From: Leptolyngbya iicbica LK
GTDB taxonomy: Bacteria; Cyanobacteriota; Cyanobacteriia; Phormidesmidales; Phormidesmidaceae
Direction of reading: 5' to 3'
Length of the DNA stretch: 64,000 nt
Assembly (NCBI RefSeq): GCF_004212215.1
Contig: NZ_QVFV01000001.1
Span: 506,814 to 570,813, forward strand
Part shown: positions 2,290 to 55,924 of the stretch, one piece after another
How the letters are laid out: the number at the start of each line of letters is the position of its first letter
Numbering within the stretch: the stretch's first letter is position 1
Program-made: the position numbers and the translations under genes
Notes under the pieces: generated by a model
Databases searched by the model: none
What the model saw: the letters and a program-made list of their open reading frames with translations, nothing else
Told to the model about the DNA's origin: nothing

Positions 2290-4071
2290 ATGGCTCCTTC
2301 CCCTATCTTCGCTTTACTCACGGAACGCTCTCGGCGGAGTCGATATTTCTGGCTCGGGCTCAGCATGGTGTTTGCCGTCATCTATGGCGGGTTGGCGCTA
2401 CAACAAGCTTTTGCCAGCGACTATGTGGTGCAGGATGATGCGCGGCAGCACATTTTTTGGATGCAGCGATTTCTGGACTCAGAGCTGTTTCCCGACGATT
2501 TGATTGCCGACTACTTTCAAGCGGCGGCTCCGATTGGCTATGAGTGGCTGTATCGCAGCCTCACGATGCTGGGCATCACCCCTGACTGGGTAAGCAAGGT
2601 TTTGCCGTTTTTTCTGGGGGTAATCACCGTCGGCTACGGCTTCTTTTTAAGTCTCGAAATTTTCCCTCTGCCACTCGGTGCGTTCATTTCATCTGCCTTG
2701 CTCAACCAAGCCATTTGGGGATCAGACGAAATTTCCTCCGCCACGCCACGGGCCTTTCTCTATCCACTGCTGCTGGCTTTTCTCTACTATTTGCTGCGTC
2801 AAGTACGGTGGCGCAGCGGGCTCGTGCTCGTCTTACAAGCCATCTTTTATCCCCCGATCATTTTGATTTCGGTGGGGGTGTTGGTGCTACGGCTCGCTCA
2901 GTGGCCCAAGGGCCGCTTGCGGCTCTCCCACGACTGGCGCGACTATGGCCTGGTGGCAGCGGGGATGGCGCTCATTCTGGCTCTGGCCTTGTACACGGGC
3001 AATTTATCGGAGTTTGGCAGTATTGTCAGTCGCGCCGAAGCTCAGACCATGCCGGAGTTTCAGCCCGGAGGACGCAATGCCTTCTTTCGGTCAGATATTG
3101 CCTTTTGGTTAGATGGGTATCCGGGGCGGAGCGGCATCTTTCATCGGCGCACCTCGATTCCCGTGACCAGCTGGGTGGGGCTCTTGCTACCGTGGTTTCT
3201 CTGGTCACCGGCCAAAACGCCATTGAGACGACTTGTGACGCCCCATGTGCGGGTACTGGGGCAGCTGTTGGTGGTGTCGTTTGGGCTGTTTATGCTGGCG
3301 CATTTGTTGCTTTTCGAGCTGCATTTGCCGAGCCGCTATACCAGCCACACGATTCGGGTGGTATTGGTGCTAGCGGCGGGCATGGTCTGGGTGTTTTTGT
3401 TTGAGGCGCTGTTTAAGTGGGGCGATCGCTGGGTCCGATCATCCACTGCTAGCGGGCGATCGCATCCCAGTGGCCAGCTCAAACGGCTGCTGGGCCAAAG
3501 CCTACCACTGCTATTCGTGGCCGCGTTCTTCATCGCGACGTTCTTCTACTATCCGCTGTTTCTCAACAACTATCCCAAAACGGCTTACTACAACTTGGCC
3601 GACTCTAGCGAGCTATACGAGTTTTTTCAGCAGCAGCCCAAGGACAGCCTCATTGCCTCCCTGTCGAACGAAGCCAGTAATCTGCCGTCCTTTGCCGGGC
3701 GTTCCATCCTCGTGTCTGAAGAGCATGGATTGGCCTATCACACCGAGTATTATCGGCAGTTTCGCCAGCGTGTCATAGATTTACTGAACGCTCAATACAC
3801 GACGGATCCGGCAGTGGTCGCCGCCTTTATTCAGCAATATGGTGTCGATTTTTGGCTGCTCGATCACCACGCCTTTGCGCCCACTTATGTCAGCGACAGT
3901 CAATGGATGCGGCAATTTCAACCGGCAGCAGACCAGGCGACTGAGCACGTTGCCCAAGGTCAGGTGCCGATCGTGAGTCAGGCGGTGCCCTCGTGTAGTG
4001 TTTTTCAAAGCGATCGCTGGACAGTGCTGGATGCTGACTGCGTCGTTCGATTCGCCCAGTCTGCTTCCTAA
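2290..4071 (+). CDS. Polytopic membrane protein, GT-C glycosyltransferase-like
   Basis: 593-residue integral membrane protein with roughly ten to twelve hydrophobic segments and a soluble C-terminal domain of about 150 residues. The first extracytoplasmic loop carries acidic residues in VVQDDARQHIFWMQRF. A DD or DxD motif in this position is a hallmark of GT-C enzymes that use lipid-linked sugars, which fits the GT2 gene just upstream. I do not recognise a named family with certainty. The C-terminal part (KTAYYNLADSSELYEFF onwards) resembles the periplasmic tails seen on some GT-C proteins. Role in exopolysaccharide or glycolipid assembly is inferred from the topology and neighbours only. Confidence 0.7.
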   Translation: MAPSPIFALLTERSRRSRYFWLGLSMVFAVIYGGLALQQAFASDYVVQDDARQHIFWMQRFLDSELFPDDLIADYFQAAAPIGYEWLYRSLTMLGITPDWVSKVLPFFLGVITVGYGFFLSLEIFPLPLGAFISSALLNQAIWGSDEISSATPRAFLYPLLLAFLYYLLRQVRWRSGLVLVLQAIFYPPIILISVGVLVLRLAQWPKGRLRLSHDWRDYGLVAAGMALILALALYTGNLSEFGSIVSRAEAQTMPEFQPGGRNAFFRSDIAFWLDGYPGRSGIFHRRTSIPVTSWVGLLLPWFLWSPAKTPLRRLVTPHVRVLGQLLVVSFGLFMLAHLLLFELHLPSRYTSHTIRVVLVLAAGMVWVFLFEALFKWGDRWVRSSTASGRSHPSGQLKRLLGQSLPLLFVAAFFIATFFYYPLFLNNYPKTAYYNLADSSELYEFFQQQPKDSLIASLSNEASNLPSFAGRSILVSEEHGLAYHTEYYRQFRQRVIDLLNAQYTTDPAVVAAFIQQYGVDFWLLDHHAFAPTYVSDSQWMRQFQPAADQATEHVAQGQVPIVSQAVPSCSVFQSDRWTVLDADCVVRFAQSAS

Positions 4072-4150
4072 CCCCTGGCGCGATCGACTAGCCCGCAGAT
4101 GGGATGATTCAGAATCTTGATAAAGTTGGATGCGGACTCTTGGATTAACC

Positions 4151-47484: not shown

Positions 47485-48762
47485 CTAGCGATCGCTCGCT
47501 TCGGCCAATTGCAGCAGCACTTGCAGGAGGACGTTGCTACCGTTTTCCAAATCTTCGGGGGCGGTGTACTCGTTGACGTTGTGACTAAGGCCGTTGACGC
47601 TGGGCACGAAGATCATGGCGGTGGGGGCGATCGCGGCAATCATCCCGGCATCATGTCCCGCCCCGCTGGGCATCCGTTTTACAGAACAGCCCAACGCTTG
47701 GGCGGTGCGTTCGACGGCATCAATCATGGCGGCGTCAAAGCTGACGGGTTCAAATCGGGCGAGGGATTGGGCGGTGACCTCCAGCCCTTCGGCAGTGGCG
47801 ATCGCCTCAATCTGAGTTTGCAGTTCGGCCTCAGCCTGCTTCAGTAAATCGGAGTCGGTGTTGCGCAAGTCCACCGTTAGTTTGGCTTCCTTGGCGATAA
47901 CGTTCACCAATCCCGGCTTGAGTTGAATGGAGCCGACGGTGGCGACCTGGTTGCCCCCCATTTTTTGGGCGAGTTGGCGGGCAGCAACCGCGATCGCGCT
48001 AGCGCCATACCCGGCATCGTGGCGCAAAGCCATGGGGGTCGTCCCCGCATGATTTGAGACACCCTTAACGGTGAACTCCTGCCAGGACATGCCCTGCACC
48101 CCGGTCACCGCCCCAATTTGAATGCCTTCGCGTTCGAGCACGGGGCCTTGTTCCACATGGAGTTCGACAAAGGCTTTGACGGGCTGGCTACCGCAGGGCA
48201 CCGGGCCTGCATAGCCGATGCGATCGAGGTTTTCGGCGACGGTGGTGCCGTCTGTCCCCACTTCTGCCAGGGCCGCTTCGACGGATAGGCCGCCGCTAAA
48301 CACCCAACTGCCCATCATGTCGGGGTGAAACCGCGCCCCTTCTTCGTTAGTAAAAAAGGCGACGGCCAGGGGATAGCGGGTTTGAATGTTTTGTTCGTTC
48401 AGGGTTTCGATGACTTCTAGCCCAGCCAAGACGCCGAGGTTGCCGTCATAGCGTCCGCCAGTGGCGACAGTATCAATATGAGAACCGGTCATGACGGGGG
48501 GGCCAGCTTCGAGGCCGGGACGAGTACCGACGACGTTGCCGAGCTGATCAATGGTGATGGTGAGGCCAAGCGCTTCCATCCAGCTCACGACGAGATCTCG
48601 TCCGGCTTTATCGGCATCGGTGAGCGCGAGCCGACAGACGCCGCCGCCTTCAATGGCTCCCACTTGAGCCAGTTGGTCTAATCGGTGCAAGAGGCGATCT
48701 CGGTTAATGCGCAGGGGCGACAGCGATCGCCGTGTAACGGGGGTATCGGTCGTCAGAGACAT
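47485..48762 (-). CDS. M20-type N-carbamoyl amino acid hydrolase or allantoate amidohydrolase, paralogue 2
   Basis: 425-residue metal-dependent amidohydrolase. Two-metal centre motifs: GSHIDTVATGGRYDG near residue 85 (His, Asp), FTNEEGARFHPDMMGSW near 125 (Glu-Glu, His), ELHVEQGPVLE near 190, VSNHAGTTPMALRHDA near 230, and GAGHDAGMIA near 385. Such enzymes open N-carbamoyl amino acids or allantoate to release ammonia and CO2. ATG 48762 sits in the 5' block that is repeated three more times upstream (49493, 50449, 52330). The pair at 53455-55924 shows the operon to which it once probably belonged. Confidence 0.88.
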   Translation of the reverse strand: MSLTTDTPVTRRSLSPLRINRDRLLHRLDQLAQVGAIEGGGVCRLALTDADKAGRDLVVSWMEALGLTITIDQLGNVVGTRPGLEAGPPVMTGSHIDTVATGGRYDGNLGVLAGLEVIETLNEQNIQTRYPLAVAFFTNEEGARFHPDMMGSWVFSGGLSVEAALAEVGTDGTTVAENLDRIGYAGPVPCGSQPVKAFVELHVEQGPVLEREGIQIGAVTGVQGMSWQEFTVKGVSNHAGTTPMALRHDAGYGASAIAVAARQLAQKMGGNQVATVGSIQLKPGLVNVIAKEAKLTVDLRNTDSDLLKQAEAELQTQIEAIATAEGLEVTAQSLARFEPVSFDAAMIDAVERTAQALGCSVKRMPSGAGHDAGMIAAIAPTAMIFVPSVNGLSHNVNEYTAPEDLENGSNVLLQVLLQLAEASDR

Positions 48763-48805
48763 GATGATCAGATAAATGTGCGGCGACAAGATTGACTATA
48801 AACCT
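48661..48805 (-). repeat. Amidase 5'-end repeat, copy A (in the intact gene)
   Basis: Covers the presumed promoter (TATAGT, on minus, at 48800-48795), leader and first 34 or so codons of the gene. Three other copies lie at 49493-49645, 50449-50565 and 52330-52450, all in the same orientation. Copy A differs from copy B by nine bases within the shared coding part, none of which changes the protein. Confidence 0.85.
48795..48800 (-). promoter_or_regulatory. Candidate -10 box of the amidase gene, conserved in three repeats
   Basis: TATAGT, 33 bp before ATG 48762. The same hexamer lies 31 bp before the ATG of copies B (49633-49628) and C (50556-50551), while copy D has lost it. Conservation in position across the copies suggests a real promoter element. 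Confidence 0.4.
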
Positions 48806-48842
48806 GACAACAATTGCTTTGCCAATCTTTGAAAGTACGGTG

Positions 48843-49328
48843 TCAGTCATTTTCTACATCATCCGGCATATCGTCAAAGCTGCCGTCGATTCTTGCTTCA
48901 CAGGTTTCAAAAAACAAAAGACCTGCCTTTTCATATTCGTCTAACTGATCGTAGACTGCCACATAATCCCCACTGGGTTTGATGTCTATGGCAACATTTA
49001 TTTCATCGGCTCGTTCATACGAGGCTTCATACTTTTCCAGCGTTCTCAAAAGATCAATCTGGCGTTCACGACCAATTTCTTTGTTAAAGATGATTCGATA
49101 GGTTCGATGTCCGCTTGGGGTTACAACCCTACGTATTTCTGGCTTGAGTTCATCAGAGTCAGCTGTGGCAACAACAATGTCTAAGAAATTTAGACCATAT
49201 GCAAAGAATGGGACATTTTCGATACGATACAGGTCATTTCCCAGCGGAGTAGCCCAAAGTGATTCACCACCGATCGCCCAGTGATTTGGAAGATCGATAT
49301 AAACTTTTTCTAAATTTTCGTTACTCAT
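48843..49328 (-). CDS. DUF4265 family protein
   Basis: 161 residues. Typical block: GGESLWATPLGNDLYRIENVPFFAYGLNFLDIV near residue 20, then TPSGHRTYRIIF near 72, both characteristic of DUF4265. Acidic C terminus (DDMPDDVEND). No membrane segment. The gene is first in the row of cargo between the repeated amidase 5' ends (A and B) and is AT-richer than the surrounding DNA, with no HIP1 octamer. Members elsewhere are often near toxin or immunity-type genes; that context is weak evidence here. Start ATG 49328. Confidence 0.82.
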   Translation of the reverse strand: MSNENLEKVYIDLPNHWAIGGESLWATPLGNDLYRIENVPFFAYGLNFLDIVVATADSDELKPEIRRVVTPSGHRTYRIIFNKEIGRERQIDLLRTLEKYEASYERADEINVAIDIKPSGDYVAVYDQLDEYEKAGLLFFETCEARIDGSFDDMPDDVEND

Positions 49329-49447
49329 AGTTAGTGCCGCCTAACCAACTTATTGAATGGTAAGTTGCTGGATATTGTTCTAATCTAGATCGATCGCCAG
49401 AAGTTTTCTTCCGATCATGAGGCTGTGGGGCGATCGCAACAAAGTTT

Positions 49448-49597
49448 TCACATATTTTCAGGCATAGCCCAAAGCTCAGCACCATAGATCGCCCCCACTT
49501 GAGCCAGTTGATCGAGGCGGTGCAAGAGGCGATCTCGGTTAATGCGCAGGGGCGACAGCGATCGCCGCGTAACGGGGGTATCGGTCGTCAAAGACAT
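49448..49597 (-). pseudogene. Truncated amidase 5' end (copy B)
   Basis: Encodes the first 37 residues of the amidase exactly (MSLTTDTPVTRRSLSPLRIN...LAQVGAI) and then a short unrelated tail (YGAELWAMPENM) and a stop. All nine nucleotide differences from the intact gene are synonymous. It carries its own ATG and -10-like sequence. Not a functional enzyme, but it might be expressed. Confidence 0.85.
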
Positions 49598-49645
49598 GGG
49601 CAGCAGGGAAATCCAACGATAAGTTTGACTATAAACCAGACAACT
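49493..49645 (-). repeat. Amidase 5'-end repeat, copy B
   Basis: About 150 bp. It matches copy A from inside codon 37 to roughly 45 bp before the ATG; the upstream end is GTTTATAGTCAA. Downstream (towards 48843) lies the DUF4265 gene. Confidence 0.85.
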
Positions 49646-49776
49646 TTGACGAGGCATCTCTGAATCGCTTCAGTATCGCAGGCTTGGAGATGATGTCATA
49701 TTCAACAGTAAACCCGTTTTAAGGGCAGACACCACAACACCTATTTCAAGTCAAAAATTCAGTTCTAAAAGATGCT

Positions 49777-50430
49777 TTATGACCGATTCATATACCATCT
49801 TGGAAACCAGAAACTAAAGGCGATTAATACTGCCAGCAAAGGCGTACTTAAAGCTGAGCGAATGACCAAGAATAATTCCAGTGGCAACCAGATCTGCGAG
49901 GCGATTAGGATAGCCGCAGCCATGAGATGCACAATTCCCCATATTGCCGTGAGAATAATCCAGGCCGATCTGAATTCTTGAGACTGGCCAAATTCTCCAA
50001 GTTCCTCTGTTTTTGGTATTCCTCCCACTGCTTCAGCAAAAACAAGGATCAAAGGACGATAGATAAATAATGATCCGAAACAAATTAAACCCCAGAGAAC
50101 GTGATCGATCGCGGCTGTGGTCAAATAAAATTCCGGATTCAATGTGATGAGCAAACCTACGACTTCAATGAAAGTCAAGGGCAGAGATAATACAGCAAAG
50201 AGATTTATCTTCTTGAGTGCTAGATGAGTCACTAAAATCACTGCTGCACTCCATCCCGCCGCTAGCAGGGCACCCACCAAGGGTTGCTCAAAGTGATGGA
50301 AGAGATAAAAGATTAGACCTGGAGTCAAAGCTCCAATGGCAAACTGCTTCCAAGGAAATCTTTGTCTCATCAACTCAGCTTCTGATACTAATATCGCCAG
50401 ATTTTCACTTAAATCAGACCATTGATTCAC
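49777..50430 (-). CDS. Hypothetical membrane protein
   Basis: 217 residues with five or six hydrophobic segments (about 36-58, 62-78, 80-100, 108-128, 150-172, 185-205). No motif that I recognise. Composition is AT-rich and without HIP1. It is the cargo between copies B and C of the repeated amidase 5' end, on the same strand as the repeats. Start could be ATG 50430 or ATG 50370 (MRQRFPWKQF). Function unknown. Confidence 0.65.
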   Translation of the reverse strand: MNQWSDLSENLAILVSEAELMRQRFPWKQFAIGALTPGLIFYLFHHFEQPLVGALLAAGWSAAVILVTHLALKKINLFAVLSLPLTFIEVVGLLITLNPEFYLTTAAIDHVLWGLICFGSLFIYRPLILVFAEAVGGIPKTEELGEFGQSQEFRSAWIILTAIWGIVHLMAAAILIASQIWLPLELFLVIRSALSTPLLAVLIAFSFWFPRWYMNRS

Positions 50431-50448
50431 GCTCTAGAGTAAGGGGAG

Positions 50449-50565
50449 ACGGCGATCTCGGTTAATGCGCAGGGGTGACAGCGGTGGCCGCGTAACGGGG
50501 GTATTGGTCGTCAAATACATGATGCTCAAAAATATTCGGCGACAAGGTTGACTATAGCCCCGACG
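50449..50565 (-). repeat. Amidase 5'-end repeat, copy C (shortened)
   Basis: Starts at about codon 23 (NRDR) and runs through the ATG at 50520 to the TATAGT 31 bp upstream (50556-50551). Several amino-acid changes (for example S2 to Y, D6 to N) and loss of the last codons show decay. The membrane-protein gene lies directly downstream in the minus direction. Confidence 0.82.
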
Positions 50566-50650
50566 GCTTCTGCTTCGTCAACGGCTAATGATTGCGTTAA
50601 CTGGGCGATCGCAACCGACCCTGTTGAGAAGCCCCAATACCGCCAGGTTA

Positions 50651-51262
50651 TTAGGCGTTTTCTCTCGCCATTTTGATATAGCCAGGAATGCTTTCAAAAT
50701 CTTTGAACCATCGCTGAATATTGGCATACTCTGATAAGTCAAAGCCGCCCTCATGGGCGACATGGGTGTAGGCATACAAGCTAATGTCCGCAATAGTTGC
50801 ATTCGCCCCGAGAAAGAATTGATTGTCCGCTAAATGTTGTTCCATCACGGCCAGCGCTTTATGGCCACCTGCTTGTTTGGCGTGATATTCGGCTTCTCGC
50901 GCTTGGGGCAAGCCCAGGTATTTATTGATATATCTGGCGGTGGCAATATACGGTTCGTGACTGTATTGTTCAAAAAACTGCCACTGCAAAACTTTCGCCC
51001 TTTCGTACTTGGTTGAGGGCAAAAAGTCAGTCCCTTCGGCGAAGTAATTTAAGATTGCGTTGGACTCCCACAGATAGTTGCCGTCATCCAACTCCACCAC
51101 GGGGATTCGGGTGTTGGGATTCATCTGCTTAAAGGCTTCGGTATGCGTCTCACTCGCGAGGATATCAACAGGAATCCATTGATGGGAAATATCTAAAAAC
51201 TGCATCAACAATTTGATTTTGTAGCAATTTCCCGACAGCATATCTCCATAAACTTTATACAT
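50651..51262 (-). CDS. Glutathione S-transferase family protein
   Basis: 203 residues. N-terminal thioredoxin-like domain (MYKVYGDMLSGNCYKIKLLMQFL, with Ser/Cys near the usual catalytic position, then NPNTRIPVVELDDGNYLWESNAIL with cis-Pro and the ESNAI GSH-binding turn near 65). The C-terminal helical domain carries TIADISLYAYTHVAHEGG. Conjugates or reduces with glutathione. AT-richer and with one HIP1 site next to it. Part of the cargo between copies C and D. ATG 51262 is the natural start. Confidence 0.9.
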   Translation of the reverse strand: MYKVYGDMLSGNCYKIKLLMQFLDISHQWIPVDILASETHTEAFKQMNPNTRIPVVELDDGNYLWESNAILNYFAEGTDFLPSTKYERAKVLQWQFFEQYSHEPYIATARYINKYLGLPQAREAEYHAKQAGGHKALAVMEQHLADNQFFLGANATIADISLYAYTHVAHEGGFDLSEYANIQRWFKDFESIPGYIKMARENA

Positions 51263-51451
51263 ATAATTTCCTCACTCAACTCGCATCATCCTCATACTTC
51301 ACTAGATCCAGTTAATCTCTGGAATTAACTCTGTAGCTTGCGTCATTCTAGTGGCACATAAAAATTCCCTTGGATTGGCGTAGTGTTGCATTTCTCCCGA
51401 TCAGAAATTGACTGCCTTAGTTCAAAGGTTGTTCTTAACCATCCCAGGCTT

Positions 51452-51850
51452 CTATCGGCTGAATGGGTTTAGTATCTGAACATCACAGTGCTCAAAATCG
51501 CGAGTGTTTCGAGTTACCAAAGTCAGATGATGAACGTGAGCCGTAGCCGCAATCAGCATATCGGCCTGGGTGCGGGGCCTGCCCTGTGTCCGCAAGTTTC
51601 CTCGCAGTTCTCCTGCCCGTTGAGCAATCTCTGGGGTAATGGGAAGCACCTGACAATACGTGGTCAAAAATTCTTGAAACCATCCCTGAATTCGGGCGTT
51701 TGGCTTGGCGCTCAGTCCATAGATAATTTCTTCTAGGGTGATTACGCTAATTGCGATGGTCGTGATTTCTGCACTCCAGGCGATAACGCCTGAATCAGGT
51801 TGGGGTTTGCACAATTCGCTGATGACATTTGTGTCACATAGCAAGGTCAT
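51452..51850 (-). CDS. VapC-like PIN domain ribonuclease toxin
   Basis: 132 residues. The PIN fold is clear: LLCDTNVISELCKP with the first Asp near residue 6, Glu in ITLEEIIYGLSA near 41, and RTQADMLIAATAHVHHLTLVTRNTRDF near 95 with the two further Asp. These acidic residues bind Mg2+ for RNA cleavage. It overlaps the antitoxin stop by 4 bp (ATGA), the usual toxin-antitoxin coupling. Lies with GST between repeat copies C and D and could stabilise the acquired DNA. Confidence 0.92.
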   Translation of the reverse strand: MTLLCDTNVISELCKPQPDSGVIAWSAEITTIAISVITLEEIIYGLSAKPNARIQGWFQEFLTTYCQVLPITPEIAQRAGELRGNLRTQGRPRTQADMLIAATAHVHHLTLVTRNTRDFEHCDVQILNPFSR

Positions 51851-52125
51851 TGCAATGCTTCCAGAAAGGAATTAGGCCGATCGCTACGAGAGGGTAACTC
51901 AAAGGTGTAGTCTTCTTCGGCACAAAGCTGACGCAACTCTGAAAATGCCTGAGCTAAGGGTTTGGGCTGTTTTTGAGCCTGCCAAGCCAGAAACTCTTGC
52001 AGCAAATCGGCGCGAATAACCGCAGCGATCGGGTGATTGTGCTGATGGATAACTTGAGGGCTCTGTTCGGCAGCATCGAGAATTTCAGGAAAATGCTGCT
52101 GTGCTTCGTCGATGTTCCAGGTCAT
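51847..52125 (-). CDS. Phd/YefM-type antitoxin
   Basis: 92 residues. N terminus MTWNIDEAQQHFPEILDAAEQSPQVI with a typical Phd/YefM strand-helix pattern, then HNHPIAAVIRADLLQEFLAWQ. It would neutralise the downstream PIN toxin by occluding its active site and would repress their shared promoter. AT-rich, no HIP1. Start ATG 52125; the toxin start overlaps its end by 4 bp. Confidence 0.88.
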   Translation of the reverse strand: MTWNIDEAQQHFPEILDAAEQSPQVIHQHNHPIAAVIRADLLQEFLAWQAQKQPKPLAQAFSELRQLCAEEDYTFELPSRSDRPNSFLEALQ

Positions 52126-52329
52126 GATGATTCAGCCTCGCTGGGACGATGATCTAATTCTGTCAGCACCGCCTCGAACTTAGCATAGGTCGTCTAACGG
52201 ACAACTCAGTTAGCGTTCAGCATACTGAATGCAATTCGCACTGACCTCAGCAACATAACCATTTTATTTAAACAGAAAATTTGCGCACGTTGTCTCATTC
52301 AGACAGAGTCGGGAGCTAAGCGCCATCAA

Positions 52330-52450
52330 TCGCCCCCATTTAAGCCAGTTGATCGAGGCGGTGCAAGAGGAGATCGCGGTTGATGCGCAGGGGCAATCGC
52401 GATCATCGCATGGTTGGAGTATCGGTTGTCAAAGATATGACAATAAAATG
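52330..52450 (-). repeat. Amidase 5'-end repeat, copy D (decayed)
   Basis: About 120 bp. The ATG has become ATATCT, the -10-like hexamer is lost, and indels interrupt the frame. It shares the variant CGCCTCGATCAACTG with copy B, not copy A. The vapBC-like pair and GST lie downstream in the minus direction. Confidence 0.8.
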
Positions 52451-52542: not shown

Positions 52543-52602
52543 ATAGATTCAAGTCACTTGCAATACTTTATAATAGATTCAAGTCACTTGCAATACTTTA
52601 TA
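52543..52602. repeat. 30-bp perfect tandem duplication
   Basis: ATAGATTCAAGTCACTTGCAATACTTTATA is not written out here in full; it starts ATAGATTCAAGTCACTTG and occurs at 52543-52572 and again at 52573-52602 with no difference. Not a CRISPR: there is no spacer and only two units. Confidence 0.9.
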
Positions 52603-52752: not shown

Positions 52753-53217
52753 CTATATAATCGACTGAACTATTAATACCAAACTTCCAACCAACCCAGT
52801 AACAACAAATACCAGGTGAGGAAACATGACATGATTCCACCATATCACCCTCCTCAAAAGCTTTGATTCTTCATTCTCTTTTCGGCATTCACTATAGGCC
52901 TTTATTATTCTAGGAGATGGGAATTCAGCTGACATTTCACCTTTCTGGCCTAGAAAGTTTTCGAGTTCGGCAATCCTTTTGAAGTGAGATAATTGAACCA
53001 CTTTAAAGCTGGCCTCTGTCAACCAAAAAGAGATTCCCAGCAAGATGACTAAAAAGGGAACATAGATAGACTGAAGACTAATACCTGCACCCGTTACTAG
53101 TGCCCCTATCGATATACTCCAAGTCTTTATGTTTATAAAATACTCATCATATTTTTGAATAATATCTATGAGGTGATAGTATTCCCTTTCAAGTTTCTGT
53201 CTTGGTTCTCTATCCAT
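52753..53217 (-). CDS. Small hypothetical membrane protein (SLATT-like layout)
   Basis: 154 residues. A helical N terminus (REYYHLIDIIQKYDEYFINIKTW) precedes two close hydrophobic segments (about 32-49 and 52-67). A charged helical middle (LSHFKRIAELENFLGQKG, SECRKENEESKLLRRV) follows, then a third segment at 133-152. This order resembles the SLATT family of membrane effectors seen in conflict systems, but the match is by layout alone. AT-rich, no HIP1. Start ATG 53217. It belongs to the acquired segment, beyond copy D. Confidence 0.55.
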   Translation of the reverse strand: MDREPRQKLEREYYHLIDIIQKYDEYFINIKTWSISIGALVTGAGISLQSIYVPFLVILLGISFWLTEASFKVVQLSHFKRIAELENFLGQKGEMSAEFPSPRIIKAYSECRKENEESKLLRRVIWWNHVMFPHLVFVVTGLVGSLVLIVQSII

Positions 53218-53454: not shown

Positions 53455-54675
53455 TCAAATGTGCAGGGCAGATCTATTAATTAACTTTTGATAAATTTCG
53501 GGATCGGTTGCGCCTTCGGTACCGAAGGTGAGCACTCGCGAGGTGGTGGTGAGTCCCAACTGCTGGCGCAAATCCGATCGCTGCCCCACGGTCAGTAATC
53601 CGGCCAAACTCGCGACGCCTGATTCGCCACCGACAATGGGCGATCGCGGGTGGGCGAGGTGCTGCATGGTCAGCACCGCCGCCTCATCGGGAATGGTGAT
53701 GAACCAGTCAGAGCTGTGGCGCAAGATGTCCCAAGCGATGGTCGAGGTGTGGCCGGAAGAGAGGCAGGCCATGAGGGTGTCTTGGTCGCCTTCCAGCGTC
53801 ACCAATTTGCCTTGTTGGGCCGTAGCGTATACGCAGGCGGCGCGATCAGGTTCGACCACGATAGTGGTGGGGCGATCGCGGCCCCACCGTTCCCACAGAT
53901 ACGCGCACACCGCCGCCGCCAATCCCCCGACTCCCGCCTGCACGAATACATGGGTGGGCAGTTGGTCGGGCGGCAGTTGGTCAAAGACCTCGGCCACCAT
54001 GACCGTGTAGCCCTGCATCACCACACTGGGAATGGTGGTATTGCCGGGATGGGCGGTGTCAGACACGAGAATCCAGCCGTGGGCTTGGGCATCTTCAGCG
54101 GCTTGACGCACCGAGTCGTCATAGTTGCCTGCCACCCGCACCATCTCAGCTCCGTAGGCAGCGATCGCCGCTTCCCGTCCGGCACTCACCCCCGCGTGCA
54201 GATAAATCACGCAGCGGCAGCCAAACTGCTGCGCCCCCCAGGCCACTGATCGCCCGTGGTTGCCATCGGTAGCGGTGGTGACGGTGACGGCTTGGGTCAG
54301 CTCGCGATACCGTCCAGAGAGCAGGTCGGCAGCGGTGAGGTCGGTTTGGCCCGTGGCTGTCTGCACATAATCCACCAGTTGCCGAAACACCGCATAGGCT
54401 CCCCCCAACGCTTTGAAGCTGCCCAGGCCAAAGCGATCACTCTCGTCTTTGTACCAAATCTGGTCGAGGTCGAGGTCGGTCGCGATTTCTGGCAGCGATC
54501 GCAACGGCGTCGGCTGATAGTTCGACCACTGGTGCAGTTCGGCCCAGGCGGCAGCGGTGCCTGACAACGAGAGCCACTGTTGAGGTTGATCGTCATACGC
54601 CAGGTCGCGCCGCGCTTGGGGATTGCGCAGACAGGCCACGGGCAAATTCGCAAACGGCGTCATCCGGTCAGTCAT
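53455..54675 (-). CDS. Diaminopropionate ammonia-lyase-like PLP enzyme
   Basis: 406-residue fold-type II PLP protein of the tryptophan synthase beta family. The PLP Lys lies in GLGSFKALGGAYAVF near residue 83. TATDGNHGRSVAWGAQQFG near 150 binds the phosphate, and VQAGVGGLAAAVCAYL supplies the glycine loop. The wording fits 2,3-diaminopropionate ammonia-lyase (YgeX type), which makes pyruvate and two ammonia. Start ATG 54675 overlaps the stop of the upstream amidase by 8 bp (ATGACTGA), so translation is coupled. A similar pairing with a peptidase-like gene occurs in E. coli (ygeX-ygeY). Role in nitrogen recovery is inferred. Confidence 0.84.
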   Translation of the reverse strand: MTDRMTPFANLPVACLRNPQARRDLAYDDQPQQWLSLSGTAAAWAELHQWSNYQPTPLRSLPEIATDLDLDQIWYKDESDRFGLGSFKALGGAYAVFRQLVDYVQTATGQTDLTAADLLSGRYRELTQAVTVTTATDGNHGRSVAWGAQQFGCRCVIYLHAGVSAGREAAIAAYGAEMVRVAGNYDDSVRQAAEDAQAHGWILVSDTAHPGNTTIPSVVMQGYTVMVAEVFDQLPPDQLPTHVFVQAGVGGLAAAVCAYLWERWGRDRPTTIVVEPDRAACVYATAQQGKLVTLEGDQDTLMACLSSGHTSTIAWDILRHSSDWFITIPDEAAVLTMQHLAHPRSPIVGGESGVASLAGLLTVGQRSDLRQQLGLTTTSRVLTFGTEGATDPEIYQKLINRSALHI

Positions 54676-55924
54676 GGGTCGCCGAGTCGAGCTGTTCGTC
54701 CAATGCCATGAGCGTATGCAGCAGCACATCCGCCCCTTGTCCGCACTGCTCCGGCGAGGTGTATTCATCTTCGGCATGGCTCACCCCCGCCTGACTGGGC
54801 ACAAAGATCATCCCCATTTGGGTAAAGCGACCAATCTCCTGGGCATCGTGAATGGCGCGGCTGGGCATGGAATAGTGGGTTAGGTTCAGGTCGTCGCACA
54901 CAGCCGCGATCGCCCCCTGCACCGCCGGACTCGCCAGGGTCGGCTCTACAAAATGTTGAGGCCGCAGCTCAATCTGGGTGCCCGTGCTGGCCTGAATAGC
55001 GACAATGCGCTGCTTCAGCCCCTCGACCATTGCCCCCAGCGTCTCCAGTGACAAATCTCGCATGTCAATGGTGAGTTCCACTCGTCCGGGCACGATGTTG
55101 GCAGCGTTCGGGGCCACCGTCAACAGCCCCACCGTCGCCACCTGATCACCGGGAATATCCACCGCCACATCATGGACGGCGGCCACCAGCAGCGAGGCCG
55201 CATAGAGGGCATCTTGGCGCAGGTGCATGGGCGTCGTGCCCGCATGGTTGGGCCGCCCCGTAATCGCAACCTGAAAGCGCTGCAAACTGACAATGCCCTG
55301 CACCACGCCGATCTGACACTGTTCTGATTCCAGCACGCCGCCCTGCTCCACATGAAGTTCCAGGTAAGCGGCGATGTCCTGATCCGTCCGTCGGGCGCTG
55401 GGCAGGGCGGCCCAATTGCCCCCGACTCGCTCTAAACAGGGCTGAATCGCCTCCCCATTGAGCCGCCGAAAATGTTCGGGATCGCTCAGCTTCGCCGTCC
55501 CCGCCATGGCTTTGCTGCCAATCATTTCCCCCTCTTCATCGGTAAAGGCAATCACCTCGATCGCATGCCGCAACCGTCGCCCCGCTTCGTGCAGCGTCGC
55601 CACCGCTTCAATGCCCGCCAACACCCCCAACGCCCCGTCATAGCGGCCCCCGGTGGGCACCGTGTCAATGTGCGACCCGGTCGCCAGCGCGGGGAGATCT
55701 TCAGTGCCTGCATAGCGTCCGATCAGGTTGCCCGCCGCATCAATGGTCACGGTCATGCCTGCTGCCTGCATCGCTGCCGTCACCCATTGCCGCGCCGCCA
55801 GATCTTCATCGCTGTAGGCAATGCGCCACACACCGCCGTCGGGCAGTCGGCCAATACTAGCCAGTCCATCCAATCGCTGTTGCAGGCGATCGCGATCAAT
55901 CCGCAACAAAGTCGCCGTTCCCAT
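54668..55924 (-). CDS. M20-type N-carbamoyl amino acid hydrolase or allantoate amidohydrolase, paralogue 1
   Basis: 418-residue enzyme of the same family as the gene at 47485. Motifs: GSHIDTVPTGGRYDG near 80, FTDEEGEMIGSKAMAG near 118, ELHVEQGGVLES, GRPNHAGTTPMHLRQDA near 222 and SRAIHDAQEIGRF near 375. In the last motif the usual GAGHDA is replaced by RAIHDA but keeps His and Asp. First gene of the pair with the ammonia-lyase. ATG 55924 is chosen; GTG 55933 is also in frame. The exact substrate (allantoate, ureidoglycolate, N-carbamoyl amino acid) cannot be told. Confidence 0.88.
   Translation of the reverse strand: MGTATLLRIDRDRLQQRLDGLASIGRLPDGGVWRIAYSDEDLAARQWVTAAMQAAGMTVTIDAAGNLIGRYAGTEDLPALATGSHIDTVPTGGRYDGALGVLAGIEAVATLHEAGRRLRHAIEVIAFTDEEGEMIGSKAMAGTAKLSDPEHFRRLNGEAIQPCLERVGGNWAALPSARRTDQDIAAYLELHVEQGGVLESEQCQIGVVQGIVSLQRFQVAITGRPNHAGTTPMHLRQDALYAASLLVAAVHDVAVDIPGDQVATVGLLTVAPNAANIVPGRVELTIDMRDLSLETLGAMVEGLKQRIVAIQASTGTQIELRPQHFVEPTLASPAVQGAIAAVCDDLNLTHYSMPSRAIHDAQEIGRFTQMGMIFVPSQAGVSHAEDEYTSPEQCGQGADVLLHTLMALDEQLDSATHD

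Follow-up and report, generated by a model that had tools for sequence, protein, structure and literature searches.

How does the start of one host gene come to stand four times on the same strand, with different cargo genes between the copies? The question is raised by 64,000 nucleotides of the genome of Leptolyngbya iicbica LK (G000, 5.7 Mb; contig NZ_QVFV01000001.1, positions 506,814 to 570,813 of the forward strand), here termed the window, to which all unprefixed coordinates refer. A first-pass annotation, made from the letters alone, noted four copies (A to D) of the promoter and 5' end of an amidase gene and could not match the arrangement to integrons. Such a match is now found: copies B and D hold attI, a site that in relatives adjoins integron integrases (intI) and true cassette arrays, and the array appears to be derived from an integron that has lost its integrase. 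The comparisons draw on a set of 63 genomes of the family (G-numbers, with L-numbers for loci taken from the set), including the sister genome Halomicronema sp. CCY15110 (G004), whose array lies on contig NZ_JACSWC010000299.1.

Four copies of the amidase gene start

The four copies are located by alignment where they were first described, and all have the same orientation (minus strand). With copy A as query (145 bp), the whole genome contains only four matches, A to D themselves, at expect values (E) of 1.1e-70 to 4.5e-16; thus, chance is excluded. Copy A (48661 to 48825) is the promoter region with the initial codons of the intact amidase gene, and copy B (49488 to 49644) is the promoter region plus about 40 codons, fused to attI; both are placed by alignment and genome search. 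Copy C (50451 to 50581; alignment and model scan) holds the promoter region and 23 to 33 codons, without a detected attI, and copy D (52321 to 52440) is an amidase 5' end that has decayed and is joined to attI. The best pairwise alignments are A-B (159 bp, 86%), A-C (116 bp, 85%), A-D (120 bp, 77.5%) and B-D (142 bp, 80%).

The similarity of A and B stops about 37 codons into the amidase gene, and B and D are similar past this end, with an identical layout and 80% identity. From this common junction it follows that the junction arose once and was then copied. The first-pass annotation had the places of the copies right and drew B and D too short, as both enter attI after about 40 amidase codons.

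attI sites in units B and D

The stretch of B past the amidase fragment is about 150 bp long and ends just ahead of the start codon of a DUF4265 gene. Among the 63 genomes, this stretch matches the array of the sister; next come G003, with 69% over 137 bp at E 1.9e-9, and G005, with 74% over 80 bp at E 6.8e-7, and then short matches. The G003 and G005 matches directly adjoin, immediately upstream, a tyrosine recombinase gene that encodes an integron integrase. Against TIGR02249 (integron integrase, cut-off 265 bits), these integrases, in whole or main part, score 331.9 bits in G003 and 382.7 bits in G005, with 472.3 bits for that of G008. The layout in all three genomes is intI, B-like stretch and then cargo; at a second G005 locus, intI is split into pieces that score under the cut-off. 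As the B stretch matches the sequence beside the intI genes of relatives, it is named attI. The aligned attI stretches have a common core, TCTAATAA-ATT/GTTAG, with cargo starting after it, and the outer attI of the sister is 90% identical over 80 bp to the G005 attI and 80% over 120 bp to the G003 attI.

The attI of unit B spans 49336 to 49490 on the minus strand, with the core GTTAGGC at 49345-49339, as placed by alignment to the attI beside intI in four loci of relatives. A sequence model of 25 aligned attI rows matches it at 49403-49336 with 44.6 bits, a score to be read with B itself among the training rows. The DUF4265 start codon lies 10 nt past this core, both here and in the sister. 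The attI of unit D (52250 to 52294, minus strand; core GTTATGT at 52259-52253) is decayed and is found by the model (R1, 16.2 bits), which was trained without D, with E 4.3e-4 for the window and E 0.039 for the genome as a whole. A GTTAGAC at 52198-52192 was considered as the core of D and dropped, the model having set the core at 52259-52253. Cargo thus begins at an attI core in B, and in D the equivalent site is the decayed one detected by the model.

Sites of this kind extend beyond the array. A 196-bp attI query matches 25 of the 63 genomes; in the 25 loci fetched, an intI match lies within about 1.5 kb in 7 and none does in 18, some of them near contig ends. A broader attI model matches 54 of the 63 at E ≤ 0.01, with chance matches expected among them. 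Further attI-like sites in L. iicbica LK are at C1:45928 (L146, E 7.8e-5), C1:1681108 (L145, E 2.7e-5) and C2:383538 (E 9.3e-4).

Units of the array in a sister genome

A relative with another copy number and other cargo at this locus had been named beforehand as a test of modularity, and Halomicronema sp. CCY15110 is such a relative, with two attI copies and partly different cargo. Its order is ammonia-lyase gene, then at a distance of 11 bases an attI that lacks an amidase fragment, a 168-aa gene, a 483-aa gene (L035:6354-7805; PADLOC candidate-defence match PDC-M36A, E 7.7e-29), glutathione S-transferase (GST) gene, amidase start plus attI, DUF4265 and amidase. Both arrays contain DUF4265 and GST (GST DNA 89.5% identical); the membrane-protein, PIN/antitoxin and 154-aa genes of L. 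iicbica LK are not in that of the sister. The proposed modular units of repeat plus cargo are supported. The membrane-protein unit stands between two repeats here and is missing in the sister. Where this genome has the order GST-C-membrane protein-B-DUF4265, the sister has GST-B-DUF4265, a difference that is what unit gain or loss by C-B exchange would give.

The suggestion that copies are more decayed the farther they lie from the intact gene is only roughly true. Copy D, in positions -50 to -1, is 48-66% identical to the other copies, where unrelated 50-mers average 58%. By contrast with simple ageing, A and B agree in 78 of the first 80 coding bases and in only 35 of 48 aligned positions from -50 to -1, which argues for homogenisation of a tract. 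In the same coding bases, A agrees with its sister counterpart in 66 of 80 and B with its own in 67 of 79; the A/B homogenisation is best read, from these comparisons, as gene conversion in this lineage. Growth of the array is inferred to have occurred by duplication or homologous recombination.

Similar layouts at other loci

Related layouts, in which a host-gene end recurs together with attI or attC and with cargo that differs, do occur in relatives, namely at a second amidase, cysS and a P-type ATPase, although they are a minority. Past the P-type ATPase gene of G005 (L130), its 3' end is present in three further copies, each with attI and cargo behind it. G051 (L134) has cysS, a Uma2 gene, attI and cargo, then again the cysS 3' end, Uma2 and attI (870 bp at 90%; 186 bp at 87%); the cargo beside attI includes TIR-domain proteins at 1247-2338 and 2578-4080 of the locus, one with GUN4. 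A 389-bp repeat (87%) that includes attI is present in G048 (L135), and a 92-bp flank stands ahead of two attI in G038 (L136). In G012 (L139) and G003 (L080), the order is cysS, methyltransferase and cysS 3' end (245 bp at 77% and 242 bp at 79%). The cysS gene is an integron neighbourhood common to three genera (L080, L134 and L139), with its 3' end repeated and cargo between.

The start of the second amidase recurs in a comparable way. In G002 (L037), it stands (106 bp, 78%) before an AbrB/PIN-like pair and then the full gene; this label, like RloA/B and MNT/HEPN for other cargo of relatives, was assigned by eye. In G005, an attC plus the promoter region of the second amidase and about 20 of its codons are copied 6.4 Mb away (258 bp, 82.6%). 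There, within an integron array, the copy precedes another gene, and this leader-cargo unit has no detected attC behind it. Also in G005, an integron lies upstream of a 703-aa gene, and the G018 amidase adjoins the same gene (L081:4623-7674 and L038:3942-7453; 82% DNA match).

attC sites and loss of intI

attC sites were sought with a home-made, hairpin-filtered finder. It reports 4 attC-like sites in 22.7 kb of intI-linked arrays of relatives. In 59.5 kb of arrays and cluster loci without intI it reports 9, with 0 of them in the array of L. iicbica LK or its sister. As controls, 91.3 kb of unrelated amidase loci give 0 (3 under a looser rule), and the first 45 kb of the window gives 1. One of the attC-like sites, in L084, is 88 nt long (GCCTAAC...GTTAGGC). 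An 83-nt attC lies upstream of the G005 second amidase (L036:2790-2872), and a 271-bp query beginning with it matches in 34 of 62 genomes; among the matches listed, many cover just the first ~83 bases. Among the matches listed, these 83-nt sites are seen at tens of places, both within the cyanobacterial family and in further families of its class. For the 83-nt part, L. iicbica LK and its sister have no match among those listed.

Loss of intI with retention of attI is shown at a second locus of L. iicbica LK. At L146, 115 bp stand in place of about 1,035 bp that include intI in the sister (L079), and the flanking sequence aligns, at 82% over 1,214 bp to one side and at 85% over 243 bp to the other.

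Origin of the array

The array is probably what remains of an integron platform next to the amidase gene, which grew by duplication of attI units and was later left without intI and attC. A platform of intI, attI and cassettes would once have stood between the ammonia-lyase gene and the amidase gene. A tandem duplication, one end of it just left of attI and the other near codon 40 of the amidase, would then have created the junction of amidase start and attI a single time. It would account both for the one common junction and for the lack of an amidase fragment at the outermost sister attI. While the integrase was present, the attI copies could have captured different cassettes, and the repeats would subsequently have allowed RecA-type recombination to lose, gain or homogenise units. 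Loss of intI and the attC sites would have followed, and the array would since have been mostly frozen. For the cargo, the copied amidase promoter may act as a cassette promoter.

Several observations weigh against this account. No intI was found in the whole genome, where the best TIGR02249 match is 34 bits (E 5.5e-8) against the cut-off of 265, and no attC was found in the arrays of this genome and its sister by the finder, which applies three home-made criteria and is not IntegronFinder. Copy C ends within the first 23 to 33 codons, with no attI found there by the model, and the cores of D (GTTATGT) and of the left half of B depart from the consensus. A repeated flank occurs at 1 of 26 unselected attI loci, which is no enrichment compared with 31 of 380 positions chosen at random in these loci; it occurs at 6 of 12 sites of the cluster loci, a set picked because attI clustered there. 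The promoter scan gives 8 sites, compared to 6.4 +/- 2.3 in shuffles, with none at the TATAGT boxes of the repeats. For the C-B indel, the evidence is gene order alone; a reading of the copy B of the sister as a C/B sequence hybrid was dropped, its upstream part agreeing with C in 35 of 48 positions and with B in 32 of 48, which gives no decision. An empty site at the amidase was sought in G002, G005, G018 and G042 and none was found, the upstream sequence being unalignable or filled by other genes.

The first-pass annotation had proposed that one gene start received insertions repeatedly and that each insertion regenerated the 5' end. This is not shown, as B and D have one common junction. 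In its general form, site-specific elements would have inserted serially at the amidase 5' end, each carrying a copy of the gene start, with their recombinases lost later. Different cargo in each interval, the single strand and the regenerated gene start are what such elements would leave, and the repeats of a gene 3' end with cargo between at cysS (G003, G012 and G051) point the same way. Serial integration is nonetheless unlikely: B and D pass from the amidase part into attI at the same junction, the junction sequence is the known neighbour of intI, and no other recombinase gene was noticed in the array. Plain local tandem duplication with decay, into which unrelated genes drifted and where attI is incidental, would explain the direct repeats with homogenised tracts, the expected trace of unequal crossing-over, and is in keeping with the lack of flank-repeat enrichment at unselected attI loci. 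That the cargo of B begins 10 nt past the attI core in both genomes, that D has attI at the equivalent position, and that the cargo is low in G+C and different in each unit make it quite unlikely.

The mobile part might instead be the leaders themselves, promoters with start codons that, linked to attC or attI, are placed before promoterless cargo. The G005 leader copied 6.4 Mb away before another gene and the G002 amidase start copied before a toxin-antitoxin-like pair are both of this form. The repeated ends at cysS and the P-type ATPase are 3' ends, not promoters, the promoter scan is at chance level, and the G005 leader-cargo unit is followed by no detected attC; mobile leaders are, thus, very unlikely. 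More tentative than the integron-remnant account, with a fairly low chance of being right, is the idea that the family keeps a second, homology-based means of stacking cargo, in which units of attI or attC with a host-gene end are added, removed and swapped by RecA-type recombination without intI, perhaps fed by DNA uptake, and copied gene starts supply promoters to promoterless cargo.

Amidase, cargo and flanking genes

The intact amidase gene (47485 to 48762, minus strand; Pfam M20), whose 5' end is copy A, belongs to the hydantoinase/carbamoylase and allantoate amidohydrolase families, with scores of 490.5 bits for NF006769 (cut-off 452) and 426.5 bits for TIGR01879 (cut-off 204). The identities first given to the cargo (DUF4265, membrane protein, GST and a VapBC-like pair) are supported by profile matches, and every named cargo open reading frame (ORF) is encoded by the minus strand and lies downstream of B or D. 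The 161-aa DUF4265 protein (48843 to 49328; PF14085, E 6.9e-23) directly follows copy B in the sister too; it has relatives outside the genus (Pseudomonas, Cerasicoccus and a Vicinamibacteria metagenome-assembled genome), and the DNA of one of these, read by eye, has no sign of an integron. The other cargo genes encode a 217-aa membrane protein of the VC0807 family (49777 to 50430; NF041646, 85.9 bits, cut-off 65), a 203-aa GST (50651 to 51262; GST_N and GST_C), a VapC-like PIN-domain toxin (51452 to 51850; PF01850, E 7e-18) and a Phd/YefM antitoxin (51847 to 52125; PF02604, E 9.8e-9). No tyrosine or serine recombinase was found among the scanned cargo proteins, a scan that short or frameshifted remnants could escape.

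Between copy D and the ammonia-lyase gene lies a 154-aa membrane-protein-like ORF (52753 to 53217, minus strand) with no Pfam, NCBIfam or PADLOC match. A 30-bp unit is exactly duplicated in tandem at 52543-52602, between copy D and this ORF. The flanking gene encodes a diaminopropionate ammonia-lyase (53455 to 54777, minus strand; NF006058, 487.4 bits, cut-off 276). The G+C content is 37-50% in the array and 53-64% in the flanks. An Rfam search gave two matches at E ≤ 1, both far under the gathering scores.

Relation to known systems and significance

Like a chromosomal (sedentary) integron, the array has attI homologous to that beside TIGR02249 integrases and low-G+C cargo on one strand, one gene of which begins just past a GTTRRRY core. 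Unlike such an integron, it has no intI, no attC found and more than one attI, and a host-gene fragment, rather than intI, precedes attI in B and D. Judged from its sequence, it resembles a working integron at B and D by layout only and falls outside the integron, CALIN and In0 classes. In passages of two papers on the IntegronFinder classes, CALIN are clusters of attC and In0 are integrases without cassettes (PMC9024848, PMC8618304). The array is likewise an incomplete integron with a component lost; by contrast, a CALIN has two or more attC without intI, and the array shows no attC, while an In0 has intI without cassettes, and this genome has no intI, attI being what remains in the array.

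Complex class 1 integrons, which are linked to ISCR1, repeat the 3' conserved segment with different cargo between copies that is exchangeable by homologous recombination. The array similarly repeats a conserved piece with varying cargo between; its repeated piece is instead a host-gene start plus attI, and no ISCR1-type element turned up in it, with no search aimed at one. In genomic islands such as SXT in prfC, the attachment site is a gene end, and the gene start is regenerated beside the insertion. This regeneration is common to the array, which differs in having no element recombinase found and several repeats of about 150 bp plus attI.

The attI sites outside class 1 are, according to a passage of PMC9024848, poorly described and undetected by IntegronFinder 2.0. 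A literature search outside subscription journals and preprints found nothing on repeated attI units or cyanobacterial attI sites. Integron tools search for intI and attC. The attI family described here is alignable across a cyanobacterial family (25 rows) and reveals arrays that a search for intI and attC would miss. If the proposed origin is true, integrons would be linked to the homology-driven expansion of islands, repeated gene ends beside accessory genes would have a simple origin, and the fate of integrons after loss of the integrase would become testable.

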